From the NCBI RefSeq assembly GCF_005116675.2, contig NZ_CP050699.1, positions 5,155,001-5,219,000 on the forward strand: a stretch of DNA of 64,000 bases, read 5' to 3'. Below are positions 21,488-42,284 of this stretch, piece after piece. The position numbers and the translations under genes are program-made. The stretch's first letter is position 1. Each line of letters starts with the position of its first letter. This DNA is from Desulfosediminicola ganghwensis. GTDB lineage: Bacteria; Desulfobacterota; Desulfobulbia; Desulfobulbales; Desulfocapsaceae. The notes under the pieces are model-generated. The model ran no database searches and had not been told where the DNA came from. It saw only the letters and a list, made by a program, of their open reading frames with translations.

Positions 21488-21751
21488 ATGAACACCTGTA
21501 CAGATCACTAATAGTATTTAATGGTGGGCTTAGAAAAATCTTTTTAAGGCTGTACCTATATCTCACTTTCCGACCTTCAGCAAGAGAACTCTTCCTCCCC
21601 AAAGATCCCCGCTTTACGCCAAATTTTCAGGAGGTTCAGCCAAATTTCTGAATTATCTCTTTAATACCTTTATCTTCAGCCAATTTTAGCCTTGACATTT
21701 TGTCTTTTCAGATCCATTATGTAATTTCAGTATAATTTTTTGTACCTGAGC

Positions 21752-21781
21752 TTGACATTCGGAATACATGTTACGTATACT
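21752..21781 (+). promoter_or_regulatory. Sigma-70-type promoter for the 21826 gene
   Basis: -35 TTGACA at 21752-21757, an 18-base spacer and -10 TATACT at 21776-21781, ending 44 bases before the ATG. Nearly consensus in both boxes. Confidence 0.78.
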
Positions 21782-21825
21782 TAAGTCAAACTCCAAGCAA
21801 ACAGACGTAAGTAGTAAACAGGACC

Positions 21826-22395
21826 ATGATAAATCATAGAAAATTCACATACAGCCTGGTACTTGGCACACTGCTCAGCTTGAGTGCGGCAACGCAGCTC
21901 ATTTTCTGCGATAGCGCCAATGCCGCTGATCTGGAAACGCACAGCGTATACAAGGTTACCACATATGACCTTGGTGCATTGCTCGGTGAGGCAGAGCAAT
22001 CCGGACTGAGAATTCGAAACTATGAACCATTGCTTATTACCGGCACCAAATCGGATATTTTATCCGGGGATCCGCTAAAAACCACATCTCTTGCCGCTCA
22101 GCCCGACCAGGAACCCATTAAAGGATTTGCAATCGCGGCAGAGTACAGTGCAACTGCAAATTTCACCGTACAGGGTGCACTCGGTTTTGCCCAGAACCGA
22201 TGGCAGACAGATCAAGTAAGCAATGAAGGGAGCTGGGAAGCCAATCTTGGCCTTGTATACAGATTTCTGGATAACCTGAGTTACGAGATACATTTCGGCT
22301 ACATGGAGACGGGCGATCTTTTTAAAGAGCGCAGCACCTATAGTGATATAGAAAATATTATCATGGTCAGCAACAAACTCACCATGAGCTTTTAA
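21826..22395 (+). CDS. Small outer-membrane beta-barrel-like protein
   Basis: A 189-residue hypothetical protein with a signal peptide (residues 1-34, ending in ANA) and a C-terminal half of amphipathic strands (YSATANFTVQGALGFAQ, WEANLGLVYRFL, LSYEIHFGYMET, NKLTMSF). The last residue is Phe, preceded by alternating hydrophobic positions, typical of an 8-stranded barrel or a surface-lipid binding protein. It has its own promoter and terminator, so it is a single-gene unit. No specific family is recognised. Confidence 0.7.
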   Translation: MINHRKFTYSLVLGTLLSLSAATQLIFCDSANAADLETHSVYKVTTYDLGALLGEAEQSGLRIRNYEPLLITGTKSDILSGDPLKTTSLAAQPDQEPIKGFAIAAEYSATANFTVQGALGFAQNRWQTDQVSNEGSWEANLGLVYRFLDNLSYEIHFGYMETGDLFKERSTYSDIENIIMVSNKLTMSF

Positions 22396-22576: not shown

Positions 22577-22634
22577 TTTAAAACCATCTCCCCCCGAACG
22601 TCAGGCAACATATTAAATTCCTTTACTATTGGTG

Positions 22635-23891: not shown

Positions 23892-23902
23892 TTCCTACTT
23901 AA

Positions 23903-25162: not shown

Positions 25163-25170
25163 AGGCAGTC

Positions 25171-25800
25171 ATGGATTTATCATCTCGTAGCACTTTCAAA
25201 TACGGCCTGTTCAGACATGGGGAAACAACCTGGAATAAAGAAAAGCGAGTCCAGGGCCACGGCGACTCACCTCTTACCGACAAGGGAATCGCTACCCTCA
25301 GGCAGTGGGCTGTGCAGCTTCAGCGCCAGAACTGGCAGCATATCCTCTGCAGCGACCTTGGCAGAGTGCAGCAGTCGGTCGGGATACTGAATGAAATACT
25401 CAAGCTGCCAGTCACCACTGACCAGAATCTCCGGGAACAGAACTGGGGGAAATGGGAAGGGATGAGGGTTAAGGATGTGTACCAGCAGTTCCCTGAGGAA
25501 CTTGGGCTTCAAGTCAAAAGGGGCTGGGATTTCCAGGCACCTGGAGGCGAGAGCCGTAGGGCGGTACGTGATCGCCTTTTTCAAGCCCTGCTCAATCACC
25601 GGCTCAGCAACCCGGCAGACAACACCCTGGTAGTCTGTCATCTGGGTGTCATAAAGTGTGCCATCTATGCTATTGCAAATCGAAAATTTATGGAGGATGA
25701 GCCACCTCTCCTGCAAAAGGACACTATGCATACTATCGCCTACCACAAAAATTATACCCTCGGCCAACTCAACATTCCCCTGGAGCAAGACGAGTCATGA
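25171..25800 (+). CDS. Histidine phosphatase family protein
   Basis: A 209-residue phosphoglycerate-mutase-like phosphatase. Catalytic RHGETTWN (phospho-His at about residue 17), the acid LREQNWGKWEGM region, and the second catalytic His in VVCHLGVIKC are present. I use the ATG at 25171, eight bases after the GT4 stop, because the upstream in-frame starts overlap that gene. Its stop overlaps the next gene's start by four bases (ATGA). In this operon it may remove a phosphate from a sugar or lipid intermediate; that is inference. Confidence 0.88.
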   Translation: MDLSSRSTFKYGLFRHGETTWNKEKRVQGHGDSPLTDKGIATLRQWAVQLQRQNWQHILCSDLGRVQQSVGILNEILKLPVTTDQNLREQNWGKWEGMRVKDVYQQFPEELGLQVKRGWDFQAPGGESRRAVRDRLFQALLNHRLSNPADNTLVVCHLGVIKCAIYAIANRKFMEDEPPLLQKDTMHTIAYHKNYTLGQLNIPLEQDES

Positions 25801-26981
25801 GCTCATTGAGAATTGCCTATTACTGTCAGCATGTACTTGGAATCGGTCATGTACACCGCAGTATTGCAATTTGCCAGGCTCTGGCGCTTCGTCATGAGGT
25901 CACCCTGATTCTTGGCGGACCTGCGGTCTCGGAAATTCCTGATACGCTCTCAGTTTTTCAGCTTCCCGGCCTGAAAATGGATGCCGAGTTTAAGAATCTG
26001 CAACCAGTCGACAACGACCTCGAACTCAGCGATGTCAAAAAACTGCGACTCGCAAATTTAAGACAATTTTTCACCGACTGGGCCCCAGAGATCTTCATCG
26101 TCGAGCTGTATCCGTTTGGCAGAAAAGCCTTTCGCTTTGAACTCGATCCATTGCTCAGGGACATCCGCAATGGCCTCTACAATCCTGATTGCAAATGTTA
26201 TATCAGCTTACGGGATATCCTTGTCGAACGCCCTGATGACAAAGAAAAATTTGAAGCACGGGCGCTTGACACCACAAACAGTTTGTTTGATGGGCTGCTC
26301 ATTCATTCAGATCCTGAAGTCATTACGCTTGATGAAACGTTTTCAAGGTATAATGATATTACGATCCCTATCGCCTATACCGGGTTTGTGACCAAAAGTT
26401 ATCAGCCGGGTTTTCGTCCCAAACTTCGCCATGAATTGGGATTGGGAGGTAAAGATAAACTTATTGTCGTCAGCATTGGCGGCGGCAATGTAGGGTCACA
26501 GCTCCTGAAGCTCAGTCTTGCCGCGTTTAATCAACTGCCAGATGATGAGTATTTTTATCATCTGGTCGCGTTTGCCGGCCCGTATCTGGATGAACATATT
26601 TTCCAGACTCTCAGTGCAGAGCTTCCTGAGCGGGCGACACTGCTCCGCTTCAGCAACAGGTTTCAGGACTGGTTACAGGCGGCCGATCTTTCCATCTCCA
26701 TGGCCGGGTACAACACCTGCATGGATATTGTACAGTGCGGCGTTCCAGCCATCGTTTTACCTTTTGCGCAAAACCAGGAACAAAGATTTCGTGCAGAGCG
26801 GCTCAGCACAAAGGGTGCTATAAAGGTTTTAACCAACGATGAACTGGTAGCTGAGAATTTGCAGGACCTCATGCGGCTGATGACACTACTGCCCAGGACA
26901 CGTTCAACAATAGACCTGGATGGTGCCAACAATACTCTGGCCATTATTGAAACCTTCCATCAAAAAGTTGGGCGAACCTGA
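25797..26981 (+). CDS. GT28-like glycosyltransferase (COG4671 type), second copy
   Basis: A 394-residue paralogue-like partner of the 22635 gene. It has YYCQHVLGIGHVHRSIAIC at the N-terminus, the Gly-rich IVVSIGGGNVGSQ loop and SISMAGYNTCMDIVQCGVPA at the donor site, followed by PFAQNQEQ. The two proteins are only distantly similar overall, so they probably use different donors or acceptors. Four-base overlap with the phosphatase and one-base overlap with the next gene show translational coupling. Confidence 0.82.
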   Translation: MSSLRIAYYCQHVLGIGHVHRSIAICQALALRHEVTLILGGPAVSEIPDTLSVFQLPGLKMDAEFKNLQPVDNDLELSDVKKLRLANLRQFFTDWAPEIFIVELYPFGRKAFRFELDPLLRDIRNGLYNPDCKCYISLRDILVERPDDKEKFEARALDTTNSLFDGLLIHSDPEVITLDETFSRYNDITIPIAYTGFVTKSYQPGFRPKLRHELGLGGKDKLIVVSIGGGNVGSQLLKLSLAAFNQLPDDEYFYHLVAFAGPYLDEHIFQTLSAELPERATLLRFSNRFQDWLQAADLSISMAGYNTCMDIVQCGVPAIVLPFAQNQEQRFRAERLSTKGAIKVLTNDELVAENLQDLMRLMTLLPRTRSTIDLDGANNTLAIIETFHQKVGRT

Positions 26982-27778
26982 TGAATTACACTATCCCGAT
27001 TCTTTACCAGAAAGAAATCCCCAACCTCTCAAACAGATTAGGAACGATCTTTGACCAGGCAATTGACAACTGGCAAAGATCTGCTGCCCATGATGCCAAA
27101 ATACGGGTCTTCTTCCGGGCAGATGATATCGGCGTTCCCTCGAAGAAGTTCACAAAACTCATTCAGCTTTTCCAAAAACATTACATGCCACTCTGCCTTG
27201 CTGTAGTGCCGGCCTGGCTCACTGCCCGGCGAACCCGGGAACTTCTCAGCCTAACCGGCTCAGACGATTCACAATGGTGCTGGCATCAACATGGCAGATT
27301 ACATAAAAATTTTGAACCATCGGGTAAAAAACAGGAATTCGGTCCTGCCCGCTCGCGGGAAGAGGTAGGCCATCATCTCGAACTGGGCCAGAGCCGTTTA
27401 CAGGAGCTGCTGCAGGATAAGTTTTCTCCCTATTTTACCCCGCCCTGGAATCGTTGCAGCCTGGACACCGCCCAGATTCTGAAATCCCTCAATTTTAATG
27501 CGATATCGCGGTTTACAGGAGCACAACCTGATTTCACAGACACTATTGCCGGTATTGATGTCAATGTCGACCTCCATACCGGAAAAGAGAACTCATCCGA
27601 GCGTGCTGCCGACAAGTTGTTCGACCAGCTCCACACTGCTCTTGGCAGCGGCTACTGTGGTATAATGATCCATCATCAGCTGATGAACGATCATGCCTTT
27701 CATCTGCTTGATCTGCTGCTCACTGAAGTTGCGCAAAAAAACACGTGCGAGCCATGCCTCTTTCAGGACTTTTCATAA
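26981..27778 (+). CDS. Polysaccharide deacetylase-like (NodB-fold) protein
   Basis: A 265-residue protein with the CE4 pattern: FFRADDIGVP (catalytic Asp pair near 46-47), WHQHGRLHKN (H-x4-H metal ligands) and FTPPWNRCS (motif 3), plus IMIHHQLM at the end. Such enzymes remove acetyl groups from N-acetylated sugars using a metal ion. No signal peptide, so a cytoplasmic substrate, possibly a nucleotide- or lipid-linked sugar, is suggested. Last gene of the glycosyltransferase cluster. The deacetylase assignment is by motifs; the family also contains enzymes with other activities. Confidence 0.75.
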   Translation: MNYTIPILYQKEIPNLSNRLGTIFDQAIDNWQRSAAHDAKIRVFFRADDIGVPSKKFTKLIQLFQKHYMPLCLAVVPAWLTARRTRELLSLTGSDDSQWCWHQHGRLHKNFEPSGKKQEFGPARSREEVGHHLELGQSRLQELLQDKFSPYFTPPWNRCSLDTAQILKSLNFNAISRFTGAQPDFTDTIAGIDVNVDLHTGKENSSERAADKLFDQLHTALGSGYCGIMIHHQLMNDHAFHLLDLLLTEVAQKNTCEPCLFQDFS

Positions 27779-28058: not shown

Positions 28059-28721
28059 ATGGCAGAGAACATTCACCGCATTGTCAGTTTACCACTGGGG
28101 AAGTCTATACAGATTGCCTTTCAGTCAATAAAGGTTCGCTTTTTTCGTTCTCTCATCACCACAACCAGCCTGGTTCTGGCCGTTGCCTTTCTCTGCTTCA
28201 TTTTTACCGGTAATGATCTCGCTGAAAGTCTGCTGCAATCGGGCGAGCCAAACAACATTCAACAGCTGCAAAATGCCGGGTACGACATTAAACCAGGTCA
28301 ATCCGCCCTCGGCACTTCAGCGAAACAGCGCTGGATAGTTTTCCTCTCCCTGCTGGTCTGTGTTGTCGGAATTGTCAACGCCCAGCTGATGTCGGTTACC
28401 GAACGATTCAGAGAAATTGGCACGTTGAAATGCCTGGGAGCTCTCGACAGCATTATAGTTCGACTTTTTGTCCTTGAAGCAATCATGCAGGGAGTTACCG
28501 GTTCACTGGCAGGAGTTGTACTTGGCGTTATTGCAGCTGTAACCAATGGGTTGTTTCGTTTTGGCTTAACCATTTTTGCCAACTTTCCCGTTTCGGATCT
28601 GCTCGTCAGTATGGGCATCACCCTGGCAACCGGTACCGTGCTCAGCCTGCTTGGCGTGCTTTACCCCGCTCTGCTGGCAGCAAAAATGCAACCTGTCGAC
28701 GCCATGAGGGTGGAACAATGA
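28059..28721 (+). CDS. Minimal FtsX-like ABC permease
   Basis: A 220-residue membrane protein of the FtsX/MacB/LolC superfamily. Predicted helices near 28-50, 88-112, 135-160 and 180-205, with the FtsX-typical SVTERFREIGTLKCLGA cytoplasmic coupling segment and the closing AAKMQPVDAMRVEQ tail. The large periplasmic domain usually placed between helices 1 and 2 is reduced to about 40 residues, so it cannot work like MacB on its own. The ATPase gene lies 145 bases downstream and a second permease is in the fusion protein at 29641. Start ATG follows a GAGG-like site. Confidence 0.82.
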   Translation: MAENIHRIVSLPLGKSIQIAFQSIKVRFFRSLITTTSLVLAVAFLCFIFTGNDLAESLLQSGEPNNIQQLQNAGYDIKPGQSALGTSAKQRWIVFLSLLVCVVGIVNAQLMSVTERFREIGTLKCLGALDSIIVRLFVLEAIMQGVTGSLAGVVLGVIAAVTNGLFRFGLTIFANFPVSDLLVSMGITLATGTVLSLLGVLYPALLAAKMQPVDAMRVEQ

Positions 28722-28866
28722 TCTTGCCAATGATAGCCGATACGAAACCGGCCGACTGTGGCCCAGGGTGAACATTCTGAAAACTTAATAATCGCAAAAG
28801 GTTGATAGATTTACAGGTGTTCAAGAGGAATTCGGGCTAACCCATAAATAGAAAAGGCTCAGCAGC

Positions 28867-29604
28867 ATGACTAAAAAGCATATCGTCCGCGTTACCGGAG
28901 TTACCAAGGACTTCGATTTGGGCAAACATGTCATACAAGTTCTCAAGGGCATAGATCTGGAAATCGAGACGGGAAAGTATATTTCTATAATGGGCCCTTC
29001 CGGCTCAGGCAAATCAACTCTTTTCAACATGATAGGTGGGCTGGATAAGCCCAGTGGCGGCAAGGTTTTCATCGACGAGGTAGATATCGCTCAGCTGGAC
29101 GCGTATGAACTTGCCTGGCTCAGGTGTCGTAAAATCGGCTATATCTTTCAAACCTTCAACCTGATCCCGGTTATGACGGCACTCGAAAATGTTACTATCC
29201 CCATGACCTTTGCCGGAGCATCACATGATGATTCCCTGGAGCGAGGGATGGAGTTATTGGAACTGGTAGGCCTGGAGAACAGACACAGCCATCGGCCTTC
29301 TGAGCTTTCCGGTGGCCAGCAGCAACGTGTCGCGGTTGCCCGGGCACTTGCAAATAACCCCTCAATAATTCTTGCCGATGAGCCCACCGGCAATCTCGAT
29401 CTGAAAACAGGCGAAGACATTATCAAGCTGCTCAAGGAACTCAGCACCGCCTATGGGGTTACCGTTATTTCTGCTACCCATGATTATAAGATGCTCAATG
29501 TTTCCGATCAGGTGGTCTGGATTCGTGACGGCAGGATAGACAAAATTCAGGAACGATCTGAACTGGAAATTAAAACTGGAGGGTTGGAAAGTTCCAACTC
29601 GTAA
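28867..29604 (+). CDS. ABC transporter ATPase, LolD/MacB-N type
   Basis: A 245-residue ATPase of the family that drives FtsX-like mechanotransmission permeases. Walker [10 protein letters not shown] (about 40-48), Q-loop [10 protein letters not shown], signature [11 protein letters not shown], Walker [13 protein letters not shown] and an H-loop SATHD are complete. The neighbours on both sides carry FtsX-type permease domains, so it most probably powers a heteromeric permease made of the 28059 product and the C-terminal part of the 29641 product. Located in the cytoplasm at the membrane. Confidence 0.9.
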
Positions 29605-29640
29605 AAGAAACTACCCGAATTGATCTTGTTGAGGATTCGT

Positions 29641-32600
29641 ATGCAGCGATTCTCCCATCTTCATATAGCCACGCTGCTGCAGTTGATATGTGGCGCTCTG
29701 CTGCTCTTTGCACCGGAAGCTCAGAGCTCTGCCCAATCAGCAGGGCCTGAATTTATACGAGAAACACTCAACAAAGTCAGCACATTTTCCAGTAGAGCCA
29801 TAGGCAGCGAAGGTGTCGAATCTGCTGCCCGCCTGATAGAAGATCATTTCATCTCTCTGGGTCTCAAACCCGAAAGTCATAATTTTGAGATTACCTCACG
29901 TCAATCCCGGGGGGCCACCATCAATTTCAAGGGAGTGACGCACCCTCTCCACCCCTTTCCTAATAACGCCATCACCCCGGGCGCCACTGGTGAAAAAGAC
30001 GGTACCCTTGAGGGACCACTCTACTACGTAGGAAAAGGTTCACTCGAAGAGTTGAACGGCAAGGATATTGCCGGCGCTATCGTCCTGATGGAGTTCAATT
30101 CATCACGTAACTGGCAGACTCTCGCCAGCCTTGGCGCCCGCGCTCTCATTTTTATCGATAGGGAGGCCACCCGCGCCAGCTTCTACTTTTGGGAAAAACA
30201 GGAACTCTCTCCTTTGCAATTTCCCTGTTTCTGGCTTGATGAAGGGATGACCGAGACCATTTTCGGTAATAGCCTGCCCGGCCAGGCCGATGGCGGTAAA
30301 ATTGCCGATTCCGTTACCCTCACTGCTGACATAGCCTGGAAAAATGGAATCACCAGAAATATCTATGCAGTTATCAACGGCAGCGATGAGGACTTGCAGG
30401 ATGAGCTTCTCATAATCGAAGCTTTTTATGATACGCCCGAGTTTGTTACAGGCCGCGCGCCCGGGGCCGATGCCGCACTCTCGCTTGCCACCCTGCTCTA
30501 TCTTGCCGAGGAGCTGGTTGAAAATCCGCCGGCCAGATCCGTGCTGCTGGTTGCTACCAGCGGCCATGCCCAATCCCTTGCCGGTATGCGGGAGATGATC
30601 TGGTCCCTTGATACGCGCTCCAGAGAACTGCGCAACACCCGTCGGGAACTGGAAAAAGATATCAAGACGCTTGAGGAACAAAGCGCTCTCCTCCGAAGCC
30701 TTGAATTCCCGCTCGGCGAGGATAAAGAACGAGATAAGGTGCTGGCCCAGATCATCAATAAACACCTCAAGTATCAGATTGACACTATCTCTCGCGATCT
30801 TATGCAATTGCGTTTAGCCGGAGATCGTGAGAAATACCGATCAGAGATAGCCACGCAGGCCACCACACGTTTTGCACTCAGGCAATTGAGCTGGGCCGAA
30901 ACATTTCATGATCTTGACACAGGTGGTGAAGAAACTCTTCAATCCATTATTCCGGATGCACTCTCCGATAACCAGGAACTACTCTCTCAGCTGAACATTC
31001 AATACCAGAACCTCATCAGCGCCACCCGCTTCAGGCAGACGGTCAGGGGATTTGATATTGCCGCAGTTGTCAGCCTGCATCTCTCGAGTCATGGTAGCGG
31101 AGTTGGCGGGTTTCATCGCGGCTGGCTCTATAAGCTTAAACCAACCATCAATCGCACGGGAATCTATTCAACCATCGCCGATGTACTCAAGGAAGCCGGC
31201 GAAGCGTCCCCCGCCAGCTACAACTATTATGACACCTTGCGCCCGGGACGGCTGAGACCTTGGGACTCCTGGTTTCTTGACAACCCGCAGCTTGGAGGTG
31301 AAGTAAGCTCCCTCGCCGGATTTATAGGCATCAGTCTGGTGACCGTCGGTGACGGTCGATTATCATGGGGCACGCCATGGGATACAGTGGACAAAGTCGA
31401 CCTGACCAACGGTTCCAACCAGGCAGCACTGGTGGCCGATCTCGTTTACGGCCTGGCCAGGGCTCCAACCCTAAACTCCGGCAGGTTGCCAAGAGATGGG
31501 CTGGCGGATGCCACCGCCAGGACAAACCTGCTGCTGCAAGGCGAGTTATTTGCCGATTTTCCCGCGGCCGGAACGACCATCCTCGCCTATCAGGGGCTCA
31601 ATCGTTTCTACGCCACCGTTGATGGTCGCGGGCAATTTCAGATTCGTGGTCTCGCCGACAAAAAGAACGTCTTTGACAAGCTGATCATCGAAGGCTACAA
31701 ATTCGATCCCAAGAGTGGTAGCGTTATCTGGGCTATCGATAAAAACACGACCGGCAAGAACAATTATCGTCTGAAAATGCTCAGAAAATCGATGCGTACC
31801 GACCTGGTCATGTTCAATAGCCGGGAAACAACATTCTTCGACTTGCTTGAGCCTCGCAATTTTCAGTACATGACGAAATTGCAACTCTACGACGGTCGTC
31901 GTGACGCGCCACCACAGCATTTCTGGTATAGTCGAATCGATACCAGAAAATCAAACATCGCCTCAATTTATCTCGAGCCTGGCGCCCTGCTCAAGATGAC
32001 GCTTTCAGATACCATCCTTACCACCAAAATGATTCTCACCAATGGCACTGAGGATCGGCCTCTGGGGTTAGGGTACCCTGTCAATGACTACAGCAAACTT
32101 CCCAACACCACGCTCCATGCCGCCCACGATGCCTGGTCACTCTTGCAGCCAAGAATAAGAAACCTCGAATCCCACGGTATATTTGATGAAAAAATCAATG
32201 GACTGGAGCAAAGGGGCATCGAGGCCCTCAAAACCAGCCAAAATGGTTTTGCCGCACTCAACTACTCCATCGGCAGAGAAAAAGCCTCTGAATCTCTGGC
32301 CATTGCTTCCCGTGTATATTCCCAGATTGAAAAAAGCCAGAAAGACGTATTATTCGGAGTACTGTTCTACATCGCTCTCTTTATTCCCTTCGCTTTTTGC
32401 ATGGAGCGTTTTCTTTTTAACTTCAATAATATCTATAAACGAATACTCGGGTTCAGTGGTATTCTCATCGTCCTGATTGCCATTATTTACCAGGTACACC
32501 CGGCCTTTCAGCTCACCTACAGCCCACTTGTGGTAATACTCGCCTTTTTTATAATAGGCCTGTCACTTATGGTCACCCTTATCATCTTCTTTCGGTTCGA

Positions 32601-34518
32601 AAAAGAGATGGCACTGCTGCAGCAGCGGTCCACCCATAAACGACCGGATGAGATCAGTCGCTGGAAAGCATTTGTGGCGGCATTCTTCCTCGGCGTCTCC
32701 AATCTCAGGAGGAGAAGACTCAGGACTATTCTTACCTGCACCACCCTGATTATTCTCACCTTCACCATAATGAGCTTTACCACCATCAAATCCAATCGTG
32801 AAGAAAACAGGCTCCAGCTCCAGCCACAGGCACCGTACCAGGGATTGCTGCTCAAAAAGCTGAACTGGGCAAGTCTGCCGCCACAGGCCACTGACATCCT
32901 GGTCAACTCGATGAAATCGATCGAGCAACCTGCCACCCGCGTATGGCTTGAGGCGGGTAACCCATCACAAACCATCCATGCCCCCCTGGTCCGTGATGGA
33001 CGAGACGCATCCATACAGGGATTAATAGGCCTTACCGCCCAGGAACCTTCGGTGACCGGCCTGGATTACATCCTTACCAGTGGCAGATGGTTCACCGATG
33101 ATGACAACTCTGTAATTTTACTTGAAGATGATACCGCCAGGCGGCTCGGGATCGATCCGTCTGTCATGAGAGACAAGCTGACATACAAGGTTAAACTCTG
33201 GGGGGCAGACTTTACCGTTGTCGGCACCTTTTCGGCAGAAAAACTTGAAAAGGCCATAGACCTCAATGGTGAGCCCCTGACTCCGGTCACGTTCCCCCAG
33301 GAAGCCGGGGCAACAACCACAGAAACAGAGCAGGAAGCGCTTGAATCCGGTGAAGACATCAGGCTCTTTCAAAGCCGATATACCCATATTCCAGCGAGCC
33401 AGGTCGCCATTATCCCTGCGAATTCCCTCCTGGCTGCAGGCGGCAGCTTAAAGAGTATCGCAGTTAAGCCAGAGTCCGGCGAGGCGATAGACAAACTGGC
33501 AAAAGAGCTGTCTGACCGTTTCAGCCTGGCCATTTTCACCGGTGAGAACGACGGAGTCTTTCTCTACAACGTCAGTGATACCATCAATTACAGTGGTGTT
33601 CCCAATATCATTGTACCGCTTCTCATCTCCGTGCTGATCGTACTGAACACCATGATCAGCTCTGTTTACGAACGAAAAAACGAAATAGCAATCTATACTT
33701 CCGTCGGCCTTGCACCCTCGCACGTAGCGTTTCTGTTTGTGGCTGAGGCTATTGCCCTGGCAGTAATCTCCGTCGTACTCGGCTATGTGATAGCTCAAGT
33801 CTCTGCATTCCTCTTATCACACACCACACTCTGGCAGGGCATAACGGTCAATTATTCATCGCTGGCCGGTGTTGCTGCCATGGCCCTGGTAATTCTGGTG
33901 GTTCTGGTCTCAGTTATCTACCCTGCCAAAGTTGCTTCGCGAATAGCGATACCCGACGTAGAACGCACCTTTACCTTGCCCCAACCTGTCAATAACACCA
34001 TCTCCGTAACATTACCATTTCTCATGAAATATCATGAACATGAAAGTATTGGCGGCTTCATTCACGAATATTTCACAGGGCATCAGGATATCTCACACGG
34101 CATTTTCTCAACCGGCCCTGTAGATGTCATTTTCAGCTGTTCAACCCTGGACGAACTGCGCCAGATGGTAGACAATTCATCAAAACCGAGTGAACTTCTA
34201 TGCCTGCACCTGCGCGCCAACGTCTGGCTTGCACCTTTTGATTTTGGCATAATGCAACTTGTTGATGTTCAATTCTGTCCAGCCCAGGAGGGACGTGAGT
34301 ATCTGTCCATCAAAGTAACTCTCAAGCGTAAATCCGGAGAAGCCCAAATCTGGCGCAGGATTAACACTGTATTCCTTAATGATCTGCGCAAACAGTTGTT
34401 GGTCTGGCGATCCCTTACCCCTGAAGAGCATGCTGATCTTGCCGCAGCATTCCAACTCGTTTCAGCGGGAAAAGAGTCTGGAACCGAGGGAGCACACATC
34501 ACCATGGAGACCGCCTGA
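29641..34518 (+). CDS. Giant M28-pseudopeptidase / FtsX permease fusion
   Basis: About 1625 residues from the ATG at 29641 (GAGG seven bases upstream); an upstream TTG would add seven. Order: signal peptide; M28-like aminopeptidase fold with PA-type insert (about 30-320); a long region with coiled coil and beta parts (320-880); about 3 membrane helices (890-990); an FtsX unit with TM (RRRRLRTILTCTTLIIL), a MacB-like periplasmic domain and three closing helices; and a C-terminal cytoplasmic tail. The M28 part lacks zinc ligands: the usual H-x-D, DD and EE positions read EAFYD, GADAAL and SGHAQS, so it is probably inactive. It is likely one permease half of the neighbouring ATPase. Its exact substrate is unknown. 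Confidence 0.8.
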   Translation: MQRFSHLHIATLLQLICGALLLFAPEAQSSAQSAGPEFIRETLNKVSTFSSRAIGSEGVESAARLIEDHFISLGLKPESHNFEITSRQSRGATINFKGVTHPLHPFPNNAITPGATGEKDGTLEGPLYYVGKGSLEELNGKDIAGAIVLMEFNSSRNWQTLASLGARALIFIDREATRASFYFWEKQELSPLQFPCFWLDEGMTETIFGNSLPGQADGGKIADSVTLTADIAWKNGITRNIYAVINGSDEDLQDELLIIEAFYDTPEFVTGRAPGADAALSLATLLYLAEELVENPPARSVLLVATSGHAQSLAGMREMIWSLDTRSRELRNTRRELEKDIKTLEEQSALLRSLEFPLGEDKERDKVLAQIINKHLKYQIDTISRDLMQLRLAGDREKYRSEIATQATTRFALRQLSWAETFHDLDTGGEETLQSIIPDALSDNQELLSQLNIQYQNLISATRFRQTVRGFDIAAVVSLHLSSHGSGVGGFHRGWLYKLKPTINRTGIYSTIADVLKEAGEASPASYNYYDTLRPGRLRPWDSWFLDNPQLGGEVSSLAGFIGISLVTVGDGRLSWGTPWDTVDKVDLTNGSNQAALVADLVYGLARAPTLNSGRLPRDGLADATARTNLLLQGELFADFPAAGTTILAYQGLNRFYATVDGRGQFQIRGLADKKNVFDKLIIEGYKFDPKSGSVIWAIDKNTTGKNNYRLKMLRKSMRTDLVMFNSRETTFFDLLEPRNFQYMTKLQLYDGRRDAPPQHFWYSRIDTRKSNIASIYLEPGALLKMTLSDTILTTKMILTNGTEDRPLGLGYPVNDYSKLPNTTLHAAHDAWSLLQPRIRNLESHGIFDEKINGLEQRGIEALKTSQNGFAALNYSIGREKASESLAIASRVYSQIEKSQKDVLFGVLFYIALFIPFAFCMERFLFNFNNIYKRILGFSGILIVLIAIIYQVHPAFQLTYSPLVVILAFFIIGLSLMVTLIIFFRFEKEMALLQQRSTHKRPDEISRWKAFVAAFFLGVSNLRRRRLRTILTCTTLIILTFTIMSFTTIKSNREENRLQLQPQAPYQGLLLKKLNWASLPPQATDILVNSMKSIEQPATRVWLEAGNPSQTIHAPLVRDGRDASIQGLIGLTAQEPSVTGLDYILTSGRWFTDDDNSVILLEDDTARRLGIDPSVMRDKLTYKVKLWGADFTVVGTFSAEKLEKAIDLNGEPLTPVTFPQEAGATTTETEQEALESGEDIRLFQSRYTHIPASQVAIIPANSLLAAGGSLKSIAVKPESGEAIDKLAKELSDRFSLAIFTGENDGVFLYNVSDTINYSGVPNIIVPLLISVLIVLNTMISSVYERKNEIAIYTSVGLAPSHVAFLFVAEAIALAVISVVLGYVIAQVSAFLLSHTTLWQGITVNYSSLAGVAAMALVILVVLVSVIYPAKVASRIAIPDVERTFTLPQPVNNTISVTLPFLMKYHEHESIGGFIHEYFTGHQDISHGIFSTGPVDVIFSCSTLDELRQMVDNSSKPSELLCLHLRANVWLAPFDFGIMQLVDVQFCPAQEGREYLSIKVTLKRKSGEAQIWRRINTVFLNDLRKQLLVWRSLTPEEHADLAAAFQLVSAGKESGTEGAHITMETA

Positions 34519-36519
34519 ATGAGCGAAAATTCCACAGCCAGAGATGCTCTCCCTATCAGGTTTCGGGCGCCATTGCTCGGGCTTGTCATGGCTATCGGCA
34601 TTTGCGCCATTACCCCGTTCAATAACATTTACCTCCAGGCTACTCCATTAGGCGGCGGGCACTTCCCCCTCGCACCCTTTTTTGTTTTCCTTCTGCTGTC
34701 TCTTCTCGTCTACCTGCTCGGCAAGATCCACTCATCACTGCAAATTCTCACCGGTGTGGAGTTGCTCATCGTCTGGATGCAGATGGTTATCGGCTCCGGA
34801 ATAGCCTACACAGGCCTGGCACGGACATTTTTAATCAATTTGACCGCACCGTATCATTACGCCACCCTGGGCAACCGCTGGCAACAGACACTTCATCCGC
34901 TGCTTCCACCAGCGCTCAGCCCCACCGATCCTGAATCCATAGAGCTCCTATACACGGGTATTCCGGGTGGCCGTGGTATGGGATGGTTTGAACTTGCCGG
35001 GCAGATTCCCTGGGTAGACTGGTTGAAGCCCTTGTTACTCTGGAGTGTGTTTATCTTTCTCAGTTACGGAGTCATGATTTGCCTGGTGAATCTCATTTCA
35101 CGACAATGGATCCACAATGAGCGTATGAATTTTCCATTGCTCAAGGTACCACAAACCATCAGCAGCGCCCTGGACAACAATGAATTTGGTGCGCTCTTTT
35201 TCAATAAGTTCCTGATCGCCGGCATCAGCCTGCCAGTGTTCCTGCATCTCATCAATGGCCTCAGTGTTTATTATCCAACTATCCCTCCGATACCAACCTT
35301 ACTGCTGGCTGCACCCTATATAGCAGAAAGCGGTCTGCTGGTTGGATTCAGTAAACTCAAACTCTATTTTTATCCTGCCTTCATAGGCTTCGCCTTTCTC
35401 ACCTCCCGCCAGATCTCTTTCTCTTTCTGGTTCTTTTTTCTGATTGGCGGGCTGTTCTTTGGAGTGCTGAACCTGCTCGGCTACTCCATCCCTCAATCGG
35501 AACTCGGCATTACCTTTGGCCCAACCCTGACACGCCCGGAAGAAATGCAGATGATCGGTGCCTATGGAGTGTTTTTTCTGTTTCTGGTCTGGCTTGCCCG
35601 TCATCACCTGTTGACGGTAACCAAACAATCATTCCTGCTGATGCCACCATCAGCCGTTCGCTCCGAGTGGTTTGATGTCCGCTTATCGTTTTGGGGACTT
35701 TTTCTGGGAGGAGCCGGCATAATAGCCTGGTACGTCTGGTTGGGGATGAACGTCGTCACCGCGGGTCTGCTGGTTGGCGCATTCTTCATGATCAGCCTGG
35801 TCGCAGCCCGCATTATCTGCCAGGGTGGTCTGGCCTATTTTACCCTGACCGCCGCTCCCATGGATGGCCTCATTGCCCTGTTCGGTACCAAGCTCTTTGC
35901 CGGCACCGGAGGTCTACTGGCCGGCATGAGCCAGAAAGCTCTTTTTGTCGACTTACGCGAATCCCTCATGCCCTCCCTGGTTCATGGCAGGAGTATTCAT
36001 CAGAATCGTCAACCGGCATTCATACTCTTCGGTTCACTTGTATTGACCATACTACTCAGCACCGTTGCCTCAGTAGTTGCCATGATGCTGCTCTGCTATC
36101 GATTCGGCATCAGGGAGCTCCAGCTCGAATGGGCAAATCGGACGACACTGGCGGTTTTTGAAAACATTAACAGACTCATCTCCGCACCAGTGGAGTCCGG
36201 AACCTGGGTCTTTATCTTCGCCTTGATCGGTGCGCTCATCATGCTGGTGCTGGTTGTCTGCTACCACCGGCTCTACTGGTGGCCAATTCACCCCATCGGC
36301 TACCTTACCGCATATAGCTCAGCGATGCGTATCCTCTGGGTCAGCTTTTTTATTGGCTGGGCATGCAATGCCCTCTGCATGCGCTATGGCGGGATACACC
36401 TGTTTCGAAAGCTGCAGTTCTTCTTCATTGGCCTGATTATCGGAGACTTCCTGATGGGCGGGGGCTGGGCTATTGTCGGCCTGTATACCGGTACCAGCTA
36501 CAAGGTGCTGCCCGATTAG
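34519..36519 (+). CDS. OPT-like multi-pass membrane protein, first copy
   Basis: A 666-residue integral membrane protein with about 14-15 hydrophobic helices. Segments such as NNIYLQATPLGGGHFPL near the N-terminus and RIICQGGLAYFTLTAAPMD near 435-455 recall an uncharacterised oligopeptide-transporter-like group (from memory, the DUF6785/DUF6784 type). The gene starts directly after the stop of the M28-FtsX fusion (TGAATG), which couples their translation. A transport role, possibly for peptides or lipid-linked compounds, is inferred from fold alone. No signal peptide or catalytic motif was recognised. Confidence 0.72.
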   Translation: MSENSTARDALPIRFRAPLLGLVMAIGICAITPFNNIYLQATPLGGGHFPLAPFFVFLLLSLLVYLLGKIHSSLQILTGVELLIVWMQMVIGSGIAYTGLARTFLINLTAPYHYATLGNRWQQTLHPLLPPALSPTDPESIELLYTGIPGGRGMGWFELAGQIPWVDWLKPLLLWSVFIFLSYGVMICLVNLISRQWIHNERMNFPLLKVPQTISSALDNNEFGALFFNKFLIAGISLPVFLHLINGLSVYYPTIPPIPTLLLAAPYIAESGLLVGFSKLKLYFYPAFIGFAFLTSRQISFSFWFFFLIGGLFFGVLNLLGYSIPQSELGITFGPTLTRPEEMQMIGAYGVFFLFLVWLARHHLLTVTKQSFLLMPPSAVRSEWFDVRLSFWGLFLGGAGIIAWYVWLGMNVVTAGLLVGAFFMISLVAARIICQGGLAYFTLTAAPMDGLIALFGTKLFAGTGGLLAGMSQKALFVDLRESLMPSLVHGRSIHQNRQPAFILFGSLVLTILLSTVASVVAMMLLCYRFGIRELQLEWANRTTLAVFENINRLISAPVESGTWVFIFALIGALIMLVLVVCYHRLYWWPIHPIGYLTAYSSAMRILWVSFFIGWACNALCMRYGGIHLFRKLQFFFIGLIIGDFLMGGGWAIVGLYTGTSYKVLPD

Positions 36520-36544
36520 CTTTAAATAATACAATTACGCGACC

Positions 36545-38503
36545 ATGTATGATGACAAGGAATTAAAAGAATATCGGGATCTGCTTCCACCGCCAACCCA
36601 CTTTGAGGAGGGTTTTGACTGGAAGACCATCATCGGCGCCATCTTCATCGGCTTCCTGATGATGCCCGGTTCCATGTACCTGCAGCTTGTCATCGGCCAG
36701 GGTATTGGTCCTGCCGCCCGCTGGGTTACCATCATACTCTTTGCCGAAATCGCTAAGCGTGCCCACTCCGACCTTAAACAACAGGAAATTTTCCTGCTTT
36801 ATTATATGGCAGGTGCCGCACTTGCCTCCCCTTTTTCCGGTTTGCTATGGAACCAGTACCTGGTTCAATCTGATGCATCACGCATGCTCGGAGTCACCGA
36901 GTTCATTCCCACCTGGGTGGCACCGGGCGCTGACTCTGCCTCCATGGTTGAGCGGACCTTTTTCCATCGTGACTGGCTGATCCCTATATTGCTGTTGGTC
37001 GGCTCCCAGATCATTCAGCGCATCGATCACTTTGGTCTCGGTTACGCGTTGTACAGGATAACTTCGGATGTGGAACGGCTGCCTTTTCCAATGGCACCTG
37101 TTGCCGCTCTCGGCACAATGGCGCTGGCCGAGTCGACAGAAGAGCGTGAAAAAAGCTGGAAATGGCGGGTATTTTCCATCGGCGGAATGATTGGACTTAT
37201 TTTCGGGAGCATCTATGTGGTGCTGCCCATCATCACCGGACTCATTTTCACAGAACAGATCCGACTGATTCCCATCCCCTGGATAGAACTGACCAGTTAC
37301 ACCGAAGGCTTCCTTCCCGCAGTGGCAACGGGGCTGCAGCTCGACCTCGGCCTCATGTTCGTAGGCATGGTTCTCCCCTTCTGGGCAGTAATTGGCGGGC
37401 TTATCGGTTTGATAATTACCATCATTCTCAACCCGCTCCTCTATTCATGGGGCATTCTTGAACGATGGCATCCGGGCATGGCCACGGTAGACACCGTATT
37501 TGCCAATAATTTTGATTTTTATATGAGCTTCGGCATCGGTCTGGGCCTTGCGATTGGCTGCATCGGTGTCTGGTCGGTTGTCCGCTCGTTCAGAGCCGGC
37601 AAAGACCAGCGCGGTTCACTGCACGATCTTTTCAACCCGCCTCCGGGGAGGGGGGATTTCAACTTCTGGATATCCATCGCTATCTATCTATTTTCCACCC
37701 TAGCCTACGTTGGGCTCTGTGTCTGGCTGGTACCGTCATTCCCCTGGATTTTCTTCCTTGCCTATGGCTTTATCTACACCCCGATAATCAGTTACATAAC
37801 CGCACGCATGGAAGGAATAGCCGGCCAGTTTGTCAGCCTGCCACTGGTACGAGAGGCGAGTTTCATTGCCGGGGCACGTTTTTTCGGCTATCAGGGCATC
37901 GAGATCTGGTACGCCCCTATCCCTATCCACAATTACGGTGAAGCAACCGTACAATTCAGGCAGATAGAACTGACCGGTACCTCGATCCGTGGAATCATCA
38001 AAGCAGAGCTGCTGGTTTTCCCTGTGGTGATGATCGCCAGCCTGATGTTTTCCCAGTTTATCTGGCGACTGGCTCCCATCCCATCTGCCAGCTATCCTTT
38101 CGCCCAGGAACTCTGGCATCTCCAAGCCCTGAATACTTTACTGATGCAGACCTCCACCCTGGAAGGCAACTCCATGTTCTACCAGGCGCTGGACGGCTCA
38201 ACCATCTTTACCGGTCTTGGCTTTGGTCTGCTGATGTATATGATGCTCAGTTTTCTGGGACTTCCTATACTGCTCATTTACGGTGTAGTGCGTGGCCTTG
38301 GCCAATCAACTCCTCACGGTATGGTCCTTGAAGTCGCCGGCGCTCTGCTGGGAAGATATTTTTTCCTGAAAAAATTCGGGCCGATGTGGCGTCAGTATGC
38401 ACCGGTGCTCCTTGCAGGGTTTTCATGTGGCATGGGGCTATCCGGCATGTTCGCCATGGGTTTCGCCCTTATCATGAAATCCCTCAACTATATGGCGTAC
38501 TAG
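36545..38503 (+). CDS. OPT-like multi-pass membrane protein, second copy
   Basis: A 652-residue multi-pass protein of the same OPT-like type as its left neighbour, starting 25 bases after it. It opens with a cytoplasmic stretch (EYRDLLPPPTHFEEGFDW) and then about 14 helices, including MMPGSMYLQLVIGQGIGPAARW and FGLGYALYRITSDVERLPFPMAPVAALG (quoted in part). Sequence identity to the 34519 product is low by eye, so the pair may form a heterodimer rather than be recent duplicates. Function unknown. Confidence 0.72.
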   Translation: MYDDKELKEYRDLLPPPTHFEEGFDWKTIIGAIFIGFLMMPGSMYLQLVIGQGIGPAARWVTIILFAEIAKRAHSDLKQQEIFLLYYMAGAALASPFSGLLWNQYLVQSDASRMLGVTEFIPTWVAPGADSASMVERTFFHRDWLIPILLLVGSQIIQRIDHFGLGYALYRITSDVERLPFPMAPVAALGTMALAESTEEREKSWKWRVFSIGGMIGLIFGSIYVVLPIITGLIFTEQIRLIPIPWIELTSYTEGFLPAVATGLQLDLGLMFVGMVLPFWAVIGGLIGLIITIILNPLLYSWGILERWHPGMATVDTVFANNFDFYMSFGIGLGLAIGCIGVWSVVRSFRAGKDQRGSLHDLFNPPPGRGDFNFWISIAIYLFSTLAYVGLCVWLVPSFPWIFFLAYGFIYTPIISYITARMEGIAGQFVSLPLVREASFIAGARFFGYQGIEIWYAPIPIHNYGEATVQFRQIELTGTSIRGIIKAELLVFPVVMIASLMFSQFIWRLAPIPSASYPFAQELWHLQALNTLLMQTSTLEGNSMFYQALDGSTIFTGLGFGLLMYMMLSFLGLPILLIYGVVRGLGQSTPHGMVLEVAGALLGRYFFLKKFGPMWRQYAPVLLAGFSCGMGLSGMFAMGFALIMKSLNYMAY

Positions 38504-38605
38504 CTGCTCTCCACCGTTGTCCGGGGCCTGCAGCAGCCAGGTGAACCGACTGAACAGGTTGTGCCCCTTCATTCATTGTTCGATTTACAGCCACAATACA
38601 TTGTC

Positions 38606-38634
38606 TTGACATGATGGTCCGATATGAGCATATT
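38606..38634 (+). promoter_or_regulatory. Possible internal promoter before the 38777 gene
   Basis: -35 TTGACA at 38606-38611, 17-base spacer, -10-like CATATT at 38629-38634, about 140 bases before the ATG. It sits in the only long gap (273 bases) inside the 28059-40725 locus. Confidence 0.42.
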
Positions 38635-38776
38635 TGATATAGAGCTCTGGAAATACAGCAGATTCAAGCCCATTTGATTATATCTCATCCTAATCTCGCA
38701 CCAACTTCATCAATGGGCAGCACATTTCTTACCGCTCTTATCCACATATAGCCTTAACGAGCCTGCAGGAGTGATT

Positions 38777-39382
38777 ATGTCAAAACTCTATATACTGACC
38801 CTTTTATCAACGCTGACGATCTTCACCCTTTCTTACTCTGGTGCATCGCTTGCAACATCTGAGGTACCACTCGGGGTTGGCGGCTTTGCCCTCGGTAATA
38901 ATATTGACAACTACCCGGACCTGATGGAGACCAATTACCTCCAGGAGACAGTCGTTACCGACTGGAGAGGGTTTCGTAAAGGTGTCCTCAGCTACGGGAC
39001 CTGCAAATACAACAGGCAGATCCTCAAAATACAAATGAAGTACGTCGATTCAAGCCAGGACTTTTATGAAACTCTTCTGCAAAAGTTCAAGGCCAAATTT
39101 GGGCCCCCGGACGAATGGAAAGGCGATTCGTTTGGCATTCTCAGGAACTGGAAATGGTATTTTACAGACAGTCAGGACAGATCTGTCAGCCTGGTTCTGC
39201 AACACAACCTTCGTAACCCCAACGAGACCACTGGTAACATGGTTAAGATTTCCTTTCCACAACTACTCGAGGAAGAGCGACTTTGCTTCAACAGGAAATG
39301 CGAGGAAATGAGAAACGACCACGACCGGGAGCGTATTGAAGAGATAAAAAAGCCAGACTGGAAATTTATGATCCCAGACTAA
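38777..39382 (+). CDS. Secreted hypothetical protein
   Basis: A 201-residue protein from the ATG at 38777 (CAGGAG seven bases upstream). A signal peptide covers residues 1-26 (hydrophobic core then SLA-like end). The mature part is a compact alpha/beta region with GVGGFALGNNIDNYPDL, KFKAKFGPPDEWKGD, KWYFTDSQDRSVSLVLQHN and a charged C-terminal helix containing two cysteines (LCFNRKC). The start resembles periplasmic proteins with a G-x-x-LG repeat that measure mismatch in a domain, but no family is recognised. It begins the second part of the unusual locus. Confidence 0.7.
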   Translation: MSKLYILTLLSTLTIFTLSYSGASLATSEVPLGVGGFALGNNIDNYPDLMETNYLQETVVTDWRGFRKGVLSYGTCKYNRQILKIQMKYVDSSQDFYETLLQKFKAKFGPPDEWKGDSFGILRNWKWYFTDSQDRSVSLVLQHNLRNPNETTGNMVKISFPQLLEEERLCFNRKCEEMRNDHDRERIEEIKKPDWKFMIPD

Positions 39383-39413
39383 AAAAATTAACCATCGTTT
39401 TTTTTATAACATC

Positions 39414-40376
39414 ATGCTGACATTCGATACCACCGAGCCAATCCGGCGAATTGGCTGGAACAATATCCAGCTTGAACTTCCCAGTGGCTGGGAAACCATC
39501 GTATCAGGTGACAGGAACCTGCTCATTGAACAAAACTTCAAGCCGCTCATTGACTTACGCTGGGAAAAAGACAATGGCAGACGCGACCTTTCCGATGTGT
39601 TTCTCTCTATCCAGAACGTTCTTGGTAAACGCTCGGGATGCCCAGTGGATAAAGTAGATGTGCCGGATGAGCTTGCCCGGCTTGCCTCCCAGACAGGCTG
39701 TATAGCGTTCAGCTGGGCAGCAACAGCTGGACCTCAGTGTCAGGATAGTGAACAAAAAATCAATGGTGTACTCTGGCGTTGCCCGGATTGTGATACTATC
39801 GTGATCGGCCAGTTATACAATCACCCGACTATCGGCCTGAACGCACTCGTCTCTGCTCTCGCCTCAATCCGTTGCCACCAAGATGATGCCGACGCCGACG
39901 CGAGCGACTCAAGTTATTGGTCAATTCAGGACATCAAATTAACCCTGCCTGCCTCCTGCAGGATGTCAGCTCACTCCTTTCAGGCTGGCCTGACCCGGCT
40001 GACTTTTCAGGAAAACGATATGCAGCTTCATTTCTGCCGCCTAGCCCCAGCCAGGCAGAGATTACAACAAGGCTCTATATCTCAATTACTCACCAATCTT
40101 CTGGGTAAAGATTCTGAGTACCAGGGGCTCTACGAATCATCTCATCTTTATGAGTGTATAAGTTCTCCACCGCTCACCCAGCAAATGTTGAAGAGATTGA
40201 AGCGACAGCATCCATTTCGCTGGGGTCGAATCTGGCATGATGAAGGCTCTAACCGCCTCCTCTCTGTGATTGCAGAAAGCAGCCACCCCATAGACCTCGA
40301 AAAGGTCCACAGACTTTGCGATAAATATGAAATTATTGACTCCCGGAAAGAGCACAAAGCCTCAGAGTCCCCCTAA
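39414..40376 (+). CDS. Hypothetical protein, co-transcribed with PqqD-like protein
   Basis: A 320-residue soluble protein of no recognised family. It seems to have two related halves: an N-terminal domain opening with WNNIQLELPSGWETI (about 15-150) and a C-terminal domain with SIQDIKLTLPASCRMS (about 168-300), both resembling a beta-rich fold. A CPDCD motif occurs near 123-127. No signal peptide or membrane segment. Its 3' end overlaps the PqqD-like gene by 50 bases, so the two products are probably made together and may interact. Confidence 0.68.
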   Translation: MLTFDTTEPIRRIGWNNIQLELPSGWETIVSGDRNLLIEQNFKPLIDLRWEKDNGRRDLSDVFLSIQNVLGKRSGCPVDKVDVPDELARLASQTGCIAFSWAATAGPQCQDSEQKINGVLWRCPDCDTIVIGQLYNHPTIGLNALVSALASIRCHQDDADADASDSSYWSIQDIKLTLPASCRMSAHSFQAGLTRLTFQENDMQLHFCRLAPARQRLQQGSISQLLTNLLGKDSEYQGLYESSHLYECISSPPLTQQMLKRLKRQHPFRWGRIWHDEGSNRLLSVIAESSHPIDLEKVHRLCDKYEIIDSRKEHKASESP

Positions 40377-40725
40377 ACCGAGCAGATCCGAGGCGCTGGC
40401 CTGTGTTCCGGTAATTATGCCCCAGGCCCAGTGGGTTAAACAGGAAAACGGTGATATTCTGGTCGAATACCCCTTTGTTGCCAAGCCACTGTTACAAGCA
40501 ATTTTCAACCGCTTCAACGGTGCAAATCAACAGAAATTAACCAGAAAACTACAATTGGATGGTCTTGGCAGCCAGGTATGGGCAGCCATCGATGGTGAAA
40601 AATCGGTTGCGGAACTTATCAGGGATTTCGCAGAATCCTCAACAATGTCAATGCAGGAAGCGGAATTATCGGTAACGACCTTTCTACGGGAACTGGGAAA
40701 GCGAGGCCTCATTCTATTGCGTTAA
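40327..40725 (+). CDS. PqqD-like protein
   Basis: A 132-residue protein. Residues 1-28 are a Pro/Lys-rich tail, then a PqqD-type winged helix: VKQENGDILVEYP, QLDGLGSQVWAAIDGEKSV, LIRDFAESSTMS and VTTFLRELGKRGLILL. It starts inside the end of the preceding gene. PqqD-like domains recognise leader peptides for modifying enzymes, but no such enzyme is in the locus, so here it may act as a protein-protein adaptor. It is the last plus-strand gene of the unusual locus. Confidence 0.8.
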   Translation: MKLLTPGKSTKPQSPPKPSRSEALACVPVIMPQAQWVKQENGDILVEYPFVAKPLLQAIFNRFNGANQQKLTRKLQLDGLGSQVWAAIDGEKSVAELIRDFAESSTMSMQEAELSVTTFLRELGKRGLILLR

Positions 40726-40775: not shown

Positions 40776-41612
40776 TCATGAGAGGTCAATGCCTAATTGA
40801 CGCGCCAGCATTTGCAGATCAACCCAGGTCGCGCGTTTCATCTCGGGATTCTGCAGTAAATATGTAGGATGATAGGTTGCTATCAGGGGAATGCGTTTCC
40901 CCTCGCCCAGCTGGTAGCTGTGCAATCTGCCACGTAACCGGGAAAGAGACTCAGAACGGTTGAGCAGTGCTTTGGTCGCTATAACCCCCATGGAGAAAAT
41001 CACTTCAGGTTCTACCGCCATAACCTGGCGCTGCAGATAACCAAAGCAGGCACGGGCATGCTCCGCCTTCGGTTGCTCAGACCTGGCAATGCCGCATTTA
41101 ATCACATTGGTTATAAATACGTCCTCGGGCTTTATGGTGATAGCGCCCATCATCTTGCCAAGCATCCTGTCCTGCTCTATGCCAAACAGCGTATTACTGA
41201 CCAGATTATCCGGATTCTCCACCGCCAGCCAGTCACCTACTATTGCAATACGCACCTTTGGCTTGCCGCTACCGGGAACCGCCACAATCCTCTTTTCACC
41301 CAAGCCGCACCGCTTACAGTTTTTGACCTCAACCGCAATTTCTTCAAGCAATGCCCCCTTCTGCTCGGCTGTCCTGTTGTCAACTCGAAGTGACGGTGCG
41401 GGCGAGGGAGTTTCTATCCCTGTTACGCCGGGGCGAACCGGCTTGCTAACCACAGCCTGAGGTCGCATCTCTTCTGCCAAAGCTGGAGATACAACCCTGG
41501 TATTCAGAAATTTCCGGACATCATCACCGGCGGGATAATTCTCGATACCGAGCAGGCTGTGATATTTAAGCGTCGCCTGAATATCCCGAACAATGGAAAA
41601 GTGATCTGACAT
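40776..41612 (-). CDS. Uracil-DNA glycosylase superfamily protein, Fe-S (family 4-like)
   Basis: A 278-residue protein. After an N-terminal extension of about 85 residues comes CKRCGLG, then VRIAIVGDWLAVENPD, VFITNVIKCG, ACFGYLQRQV, VIFSMGVIATKALL and ATYHPTYLLQNP. Four cysteines placed as in family 4 enzymes would bind a 4Fe-4S cluster. Motif 1 departs from the usual GEAPGxxED, reading GDWLAVEN, while motif 2 (HPTYLL) is normal, so activity on uracil is not certain. Removal of uracil or another deaminated base from DNA is the family role. Confidence 0.8.
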   Translation of the reverse strand: MSDHFSIVRDIQATLKYHSLLGIENYPAGDDVRKFLNTRVVSPALAEEMRPQAVVSKPVRPGVTGIETPSPAPSLRVDNRTAEQKGALLEEIAVEVKNCKRCGLGEKRIVAVPGSGKPKVRIAIVGDWLAVENPDNLVSNTLFGIEQDRMLGKMMGAITIKPEDVFITNVIKCGIARSEQPKAEHARACFGYLQRQVMAVEPEVIFSMGVIATKALLNRSESLSRLRGRLHSYQLGEGKRIPLIATYHPTYLLQNPEMKRATWVDLQMLARQLGIDLS

Positions 41613-41912: not shown

Positions 41913-42284
41913 ATGGACAAACAGGAATTCAGGAAGTCTCGCAAAAAACTCGCCAAGACCCAAAAGCAACTCTCCGAATTGTTGGGAATGTCACTAAAAA
42001 CGATACACAGCTATGAACAGGGCTGGCGGACCATTCCGACCCATATCGAACGCCAGCTTTACTTCCTGCTTATCCATCAACGAGGCCGCAACAACCACCT
42101 TACACCGTGCTGGGATAAAAAACAGTGTGATGTGAAGGAGCAGTGTCCGGCATATGAATATCAGTCAGGTCATCTTTGCTGGTTCCTCTGCGGCACCCTC
42201 TGCGAATGCACCCAGGACGCTACCAATAAAAGTAAGCTGAGTGTTTGTAGAGAGTGTGAGATCTTCACCTCACTGCTTGATTAA
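41913..42284 (+). CDS. HTH (XRE-like) regulator with Cys-rich C-terminal domain
   Basis: A 123-residue protein. Residues 5-50 are an XRE-type helix-turn-helix (KLAKTQKQLSELLGMSLKTI, then YEQGWRTIPTHIERQ). The C-terminal half has eight or more cysteines: CWDKKQC, VKEQCPAY, HLCWFLCGTLCEC and SVCRECEIF. The CW...C...CPAY...CW...C...C..C pattern recurs in many deltaproteobacterial proteins and probably binds zinc or an Fe-S cluster, giving a metal, redox or oxygen sensor. The binding ligand is inferred. Ribosome-binding site AAGGA. Confidence 0.8.
   Translation: MDKQEFRKSRKKLAKTQKQLSELLGMSLKTIHSYEQGWRTIPTHIERQLYFLLIHQRGRNNHLTPCWDKKQCDVKEQCPAYEYQSGHLCWFLCGTLCECTQDATNKSKLSVCRECEIFTSLLD

Follow-up and report, generated by a model that had tools for sequence, protein, structure and literature searches.

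The window, a 64,000-nucleotide stretch of the Desulfosediminicola ganghwensis genome (contig NZ_CP050699.1, positions 5,155,001 to 5,219,000), carries eight plus-strand genes, A to H, that together span positions 28059 to 40725 (Table 1). A check of the open reading frames bore out the coordinates given for this cluster in a first-pass annotation, while its count of nine plus-strand genes had to be lowered to eight, the next gene being on the minus strand. That gene, directly after H, encodes a family-4 uracil-DNA glycosylase (40776-41612) and is convergent with H in several related loci; a small HTH protein with a cysteine-rich tail, encoded at 41913-42284, is 67 to 72% identical to proteins encoded beside the glycosylase gene in relatives. 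Just upstream of A lies a colinear block of genes, O, M, L, K, and J (22629-27778), which fell outside the earlier bounds and to which the functional unit extends. Just upstream of O, positions 19748-22395 encode a secreted FG-GAP repeat protein on the minus strand together with a small outer-membrane β-barrel-like protein, an arrangement also seen for homologues in several relatives. Scans for promoters and terminators showed no excess over shuffled sequences.

Table 1. Genes of the cluster and of the glycosyltransferase block upstream of it
Gene	Product	Positions	Strand	Basis
O	GT28-like glycosyltransferase, paralogue of K	22629-23891	+	Pfam
M	GT4 glycosyltransferase (EpsE-like)	23903-25162	+	O-M-K order in relatives
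L	Histidine phosphatase (branch 1), between M and K	25072-25800	+	
K	MurG-like (GT28) glycosyltransferase	25797-26981	+	Obligate co-occurring partner
J	DUF2334-type polysaccharide deacetylase-like protein	26981-27778	+	Pfam DUF2334 8e-6, just below cut-off
A	Minimal FtsX-type half-permease, 220 aa	28059-28721	+	Pfam FtsX 1.2e-15
B	Type VII ABC ATPase, LolD/MacB/YbbA-like, 245 aa	28867-29604	+	Motifs, profiles
C	M28-FtsX fusion permease	29620-34518	+	Pfam, profile search, hydropathy
D	DUF6785/DUF6784 membrane protein, OPT fold (predicted)	34519-36519	+	Pfam 3e-161, AF2 model, Foldseek
E	Highly conserved polytopic membrane protein	36545-38503	+	No Pfam match
F	Small secreted protein, signal-peptide-like N-terminus	38771-39382	+	Orthologues in relatives
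G	Soluble protein of unknown fold, partner of H	39414-40376	+	Co-occurrence
H	PqqD-like (RRE-type) domain protein, overlaps G	40327-40725	+	Pfam PqqD 4e-8

B carries intact Walker A, LSGGQ, and Walker B motifs. Its earlier assignment as a LolD-type ATPase holds in the wider sense of a LolD/MacB/YbbA-like protein, but its score of 230.6 bits against the LolD model does not reach the equivalog cut-off of 307.75; likewise, A scores 54.5 against the LolCE equivalog cut-off of 362. In profile comparisons A resembles the C-terminal part of LolC/E, and it has a loop of about 40 aa instead of a periplasmic domain. The FtsX C-terminal permease domain of Pfam is over its cut-off both in A, as expected for the small FtsX permease reported at first pass, and in C (1.4e-10). 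Nearly all relatives have A next to B, and the trees of A and C agree closely (correlation of the distance matrices, 0.90). These features, together with the missing periplasmic domain, make the previously suggested heteromeric FtsX permease plausible, but in two genomes that have B and C (G342 and G382) A was not found beside B, so it may be dispensable or replaced there.

C is 1625 aa long if read from the ATG at 29641, or 1632 aa from the TTG at 29620. Its description as a 1625-residue M28-FtsX fusion was confirmed, with MacB_PCD and FtsX recognized by Pfam and M28 by profile. The MacB_PCD match (2.8e-7) corresponds to a periplasmic core domain between TM1 and TM2. In PDB searches, the N-terminal profile matches an M28 aminopeptidase with a PA domain (2ek8; 1.6e-13), as well as the transferrin receptor and nicastrin. 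Judging by hydropathy, C has a signal or anchor at its N-terminus, ahead of the PA plus M28-like pseudo-peptidase part and a beta-rich region, and further on it appears to have three extra TM helices (residues 910-989), an FtsX unit with a periplasmic domain, and a cytoplasmic tail. In the M28 part, the His of the HxD motif, both Glu of the EE pair, and the His of the HTPxDT motif are replaced in 13 of 13 aligned sequences, all of which retain the two Asp residues. Loss of the zinc-ligand His and the catalytic Glu makes peptidase-based maturation unlikely, and the replaced residues suggest that this part is most likely a receptor or gate rather than a peptidase. The transferrin receptor and nicastrin are pseudo-M28 receptors that also combine the PA and M28 fold with lost catalytic residues, but they are eukaryotic proteins and lack the ABC permease to which this part is joined in C.

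The permease part of C (about residues 840-1500) matches the PADLOC model CARF_m8 LolE_TM (1.8e-60; “CARF_LolE_TM,” PDLC01991 and PDLC01990), aligning to model positions 10-618 of 810, and judging by sequence it is a member of a wider permease family that PADLOC labels with this name. A CARF_m8 variant named after beta-galactosidase has a large N-terminal part, as does C. In contrast to the CARF_m8 proteins, C has no CARF domain and no CRISPR context was seen; its C-terminal domain (residues 1438-1632) matched no PADLOC model at E ≤ 10. Assignment of the locus to a defense system was therefore rejected, the CARF_m8 permease domain being the sole match.

Both D and E had been described as OPT-like membrane proteins, which agrees with the predicted fold of D, whereas E displays only a weak colinear profile similarity. 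The AF2 model of D (pLDDT 88.7, pTM 0.89) has an OPT fold: in Foldseek searches its only significant PDB matches are two structures of the barley Yellow stripe 1 transporter (HvYS1), 7wst (E 3e-8) and 7wsr (1e-7), with probability 1.00, TM scores of 0.60-0.66, and a best E value of 3.4e-8. E has no Pfam match and is 70-92% identical across families, diverging about as slowly as the ATPase B. When aligned with real OPT proteins by hhalign, E gives a weak match (P = 4e-4, probability 34%) over about 410 colinear columns, and D covers the same columns (P = 7e-4, probability 27%); two unrelated transporters gave P values of 0.72 and 0.78, weaker controls than matched profiles because both are single sequences. 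E may be a distant OPT relative. An AF2 model of E built from 35 sequences (pLDDT 40) was discarded, profile comparison revealed no direct similarity between D and E, and PDB sequence searches with D, E, F, and G returned nothing credible. Both proteins stay below the cut-off of the OPT superfamily model (PF03169), which has no match at that level in the window's own genome or in 57 relatives and a single sub-cut-off one, to the E protein of G167. HvYS1, which belongs to the OPT transporters of peptides or metal chelates, is a homodimer (PMC9691689), whereas D and E differ from each other, are obligately paired, and are tied to an ABC machine. D-like proteins may also occur elsewhere, since Pfam has DUF6785 as a family.

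Thirty loci, retrieved from named Desulfobacterota genomes with a single-protein query that reaches close relatives only, show A-B-C-D-E in this order as far as their contigs extend, usually with G-H after them and often with F. More distant families also keep A-B-C-D-E and have K directly upstream, with a 4-bp overlap between K and A in one of them (L094). Desulfobacula-type loci still have the glycosyltransferase block close by, but in the opposite orientation. No relatives of the locus were found among plasmids or viral contigs. Some relatives have an MsbA-like ABC exporter with an interruption of about 250 residues in its nucleotide-binding domain; its gene is located between E and F or else past H in minus-strand orientation, accompanied by a cyclic-nucleotide-binding-like gene (L031:18782-21355, L033:18784-21360, L055:18753-21320, L046:21995-24526 on the minus strand, and G000:C1:956479-958980). 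The window's genome lacks this exporter at the locus and has only a 42% identical homologue elsewhere, so it is not part of the core.

Four independent profile searches over the same 297 genomes, all from the phylum Desulfobacterota, detected E, full-length C, D (above its cut-off), and K (E ≤ 1e-97) in 20 genomes each. These are the identical 20 genomes, with one copy of each gene, full-length for C, D, and E, from about 12 families. For two genes, such an identical set has a log10 p of about -31 assuming independent genomes, a value that overstates the significance because the genomes share ancestry; nevertheless, the association of C, D, E, and K is far beyond chance. The neighborhood check suggested at first pass thus came out strongly in favor of a conserved envelope system. 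All four genes are also present in genomes where they are not linked (G364, G167, G199, G342, and G382): in G364, K is found at 3185 kb and C at 1963 kb; in G167, E is on contig C25, C and D on C31, and K on C26; and in G342 and G382 the genes are on different contigs. Presence is patchy within families, with G089 positive and five genomes of the same family negative. Correlations of the distance matrices are 0.95 for C-E, 0.96 for C-D, and 0.93 for D-E, and those involving K (0.61-0.70, with one misassigned row dropped) are clearly lower. In G167, the isolated E gene directly follows a branched-chain amino-acid type ABC transporter operon (L098:8599-13945).

The remaining genes of the cluster have a narrower distribution. 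F, the secreted protein of the first-pass annotation, indeed has a signal-peptide-like N-terminus, and its orthologues lie between E and G in 12 of the loci examined. G has a CxxC motif in most orthologues. G and H occur in the same 10 of the 20 positive genomes and in none of 20 negative ones, also when they are away from the cluster, and are thus a dependent pair. H was correctly recognized as a PqqD-like protein overlapping G; in PDB searches it is closest to lasso-peptide RRE proteins (TbiB1, 5e-6). The observation that this domain stands here without a modifying enzyme or precursor was likewise sustained: the intergenic stretches tested held no conserved precursor-peptide ORF, the matches being pieces or antisense of known genes, and in most genomes no modifying enzyme lies beside the core genes. 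Radical-SAM genes near the glycosyltransferase or ABC block were seen in a few genomes only (L155:9563-10531 and, on the minus strand, L095:1728-2669 and L057:5928-6878).

The first-pass annotation missed both the obligate glycosyltransferase link and the glycan-building operon, which shift the likely substrate towards a glycoconjugate. The next-best matches of the K profile, near 1e-57 and weaker, are to its paralogue O, and such second-tier matches occur in 20 of 20 positive genomes and 5 others. The order O-M-K is kept in relatives, J (no signal peptide evident) adjoins K in many of them, and in another family L is replaced by a methyltransferase-like gene. Exopolysaccharide clusters with ABC export and GT4/GT28 enzymes resemble this block in joining glycosyltransferases to a deacetylase-like gene; here, however, no Wzx, Wzy, or initiating transferase was found, and the export candidates are the OPT-fold proteins and the type VII ABC unit. 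The block 22629-27778 revealed no initiating sugar-phosphate transferase, flippase, or polymerase, and no periplasmic carrier or outer-membrane partner is common to all.

The reading that we tentatively favor, at a little short of an even chance, is a co-inherited inner-membrane machine for an envelope glycoconjugate, composed of a type VII ABC unit (B with A and C), the OPT-fold pair, and the linked glycosyltransferases. The cytoplasmic glycosyltransferases K, O, and M, with L and J, would build a glycan or glycolipid, which D and E, acting as a pair, would move across the inner membrane; the ATPase B would then drive the half-permease A and the fusion permease C, pulling the glycoconjugate off the periplasmic face. 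The PA/M28-like domain of C may serve as a docking or gating receptor that cuts no peptide, and F, G, and H would be accessory in part of the lineages, with H possibly recruiting a client protein through its PqqD fold. In this scheme we infer what is carried and which way, that D pairs with E and A with C, and the sequence of events, whereas the composition of the cluster, its shared distribution, the D fold, and the loss of M28 catalytic residues are shown by the analysis. In its favor, C, D, E, and K are always inherited together in the genomes searched, even when scattered, which points to an undescribed system translocating a sugar-containing molecule; co-occurrence, however, shows partnership and not substrate. 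The 4-bp overlap of K with A in L094, the high distance correlations among C, D, and E and between A and C, the OPT fold of D, and the lost M28 ligands also speak for it. Against it stand the initiating transferase, flippase, and polymerase not identified in the block, the lack of a common periplasmic carrier or outer-membrane partner, the lower distance correlations of K, and the fact that known OPT transporters carry peptides or metal chelates, not glycans. A bolder version, which we consider possible but rather unlikely, is a new class of envelope glycoconjugate translocator, in which an obligate heteromeric OPT-fold pair would replace the flippase or exporter, and its energy or gating would come from an asymmetric type VII ABC unit that bears a repurposed pseudo-peptidase receptor.

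It is unlikely that D and E instead transport a peptide or peptide-like metal chelate, which the ABC unit and the PA/M28-like receptor would capture or release in the periplasm and H would bind as a PqqD-type domain. The OPT fold of D, the historically peptide-binding M28 fold, and the kinship of H to lasso-peptide RRE proteins would fit, but the strict glycosyltransferase co-occurrence would be unexplained, the intergenic stretches tested lack a conserved precursor ORF, and H is missing from half of the positive genomes. We give even less weight to FtsEX-like mechanotransmission, in which B would use ATP hydrolysis to move the periplasmic domains of A and C, with the pseudo-peptidase switching on a cell-wall- or glycan-modifying enzyme. 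Degenerate EnvC activates amidases in this way, and an FtsX/MacB-type permease fused to an apparently dead peptidase domain recalls that arrangement; yet no hydrolase recurs in the neighborhoods, and the obligate pair D/E would have no explanation. A Lol-like machine for lipoprotein release or maturation, as proposed at first pass, is very improbable: B does resemble LolD, and A the C-terminal part of LolC/E, but both score below the equivalog cut-offs, A has no periplasmic domain, the M28 domain is predicted to be inactive, and D, E, and K would have no role. The broader proposal of peptide or lipoprotein maturation finds no support, given the M28 ligands lost in all 13 sequences, core genes that in most genomes have no modifying enzyme next to them, and the intergenic stretches tested, in which no conserved precursor ORF was found. 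That the genes are neighbors without a common function is scarcely credible, because, although the sampled genomes are related and the counts not independent, presence and absence are identical in about 12 families, patchy within families, and maintained when the genes are unlinked, which, at the level tested, already refutes shared ancestry alone for C, D, E, and K.

To return to the putative glycoconjugate machine, its ATPase and MacB/FtsX-type permease are shared with the type VII ABC systems LolCDE, MacAB-TolC, FtsEX-EnvC, and YbbAP-TesA, of which YbbAP is paired with a separate periplasmic hydrolase (PMC12646458). It differs from them in that one permease half is minimal, that C has three additional TM helices and, fused to it, a PA/M28 domain that is catalytically dead, and that a putative OPT-fold pair and a glycosyltransferase are obligate. 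The open-access literature searched yielded nothing on DUF6785 and nothing matching the gene combination, in keeping with the earlier statement that no described system has this set. If the favored reading is true, it would add a further type of type VII ABC machine, extend the roles of the OPT fold to envelope biogenesis, assign the unannotated DUF6785/DUF6784 family to a system, and name E, a membrane protein conserved as tightly as the ATPase and without a Pfam family. For cultivable sulfate reducers, such as Desulfopila and Desulfogranum, the locus would also offer a concrete target for genetics.

Elsewhere in the window, positions 1-464 cover the last part of a 23S rRNA gene plus a 5S rRNA gene, and in the gene for the formate dehydrogenase alpha subunit (52917-55721, minus strand) the reading frame is interrupted by an in-frame TGA (ARIUHSATV) that most likely encodes selenocysteine.
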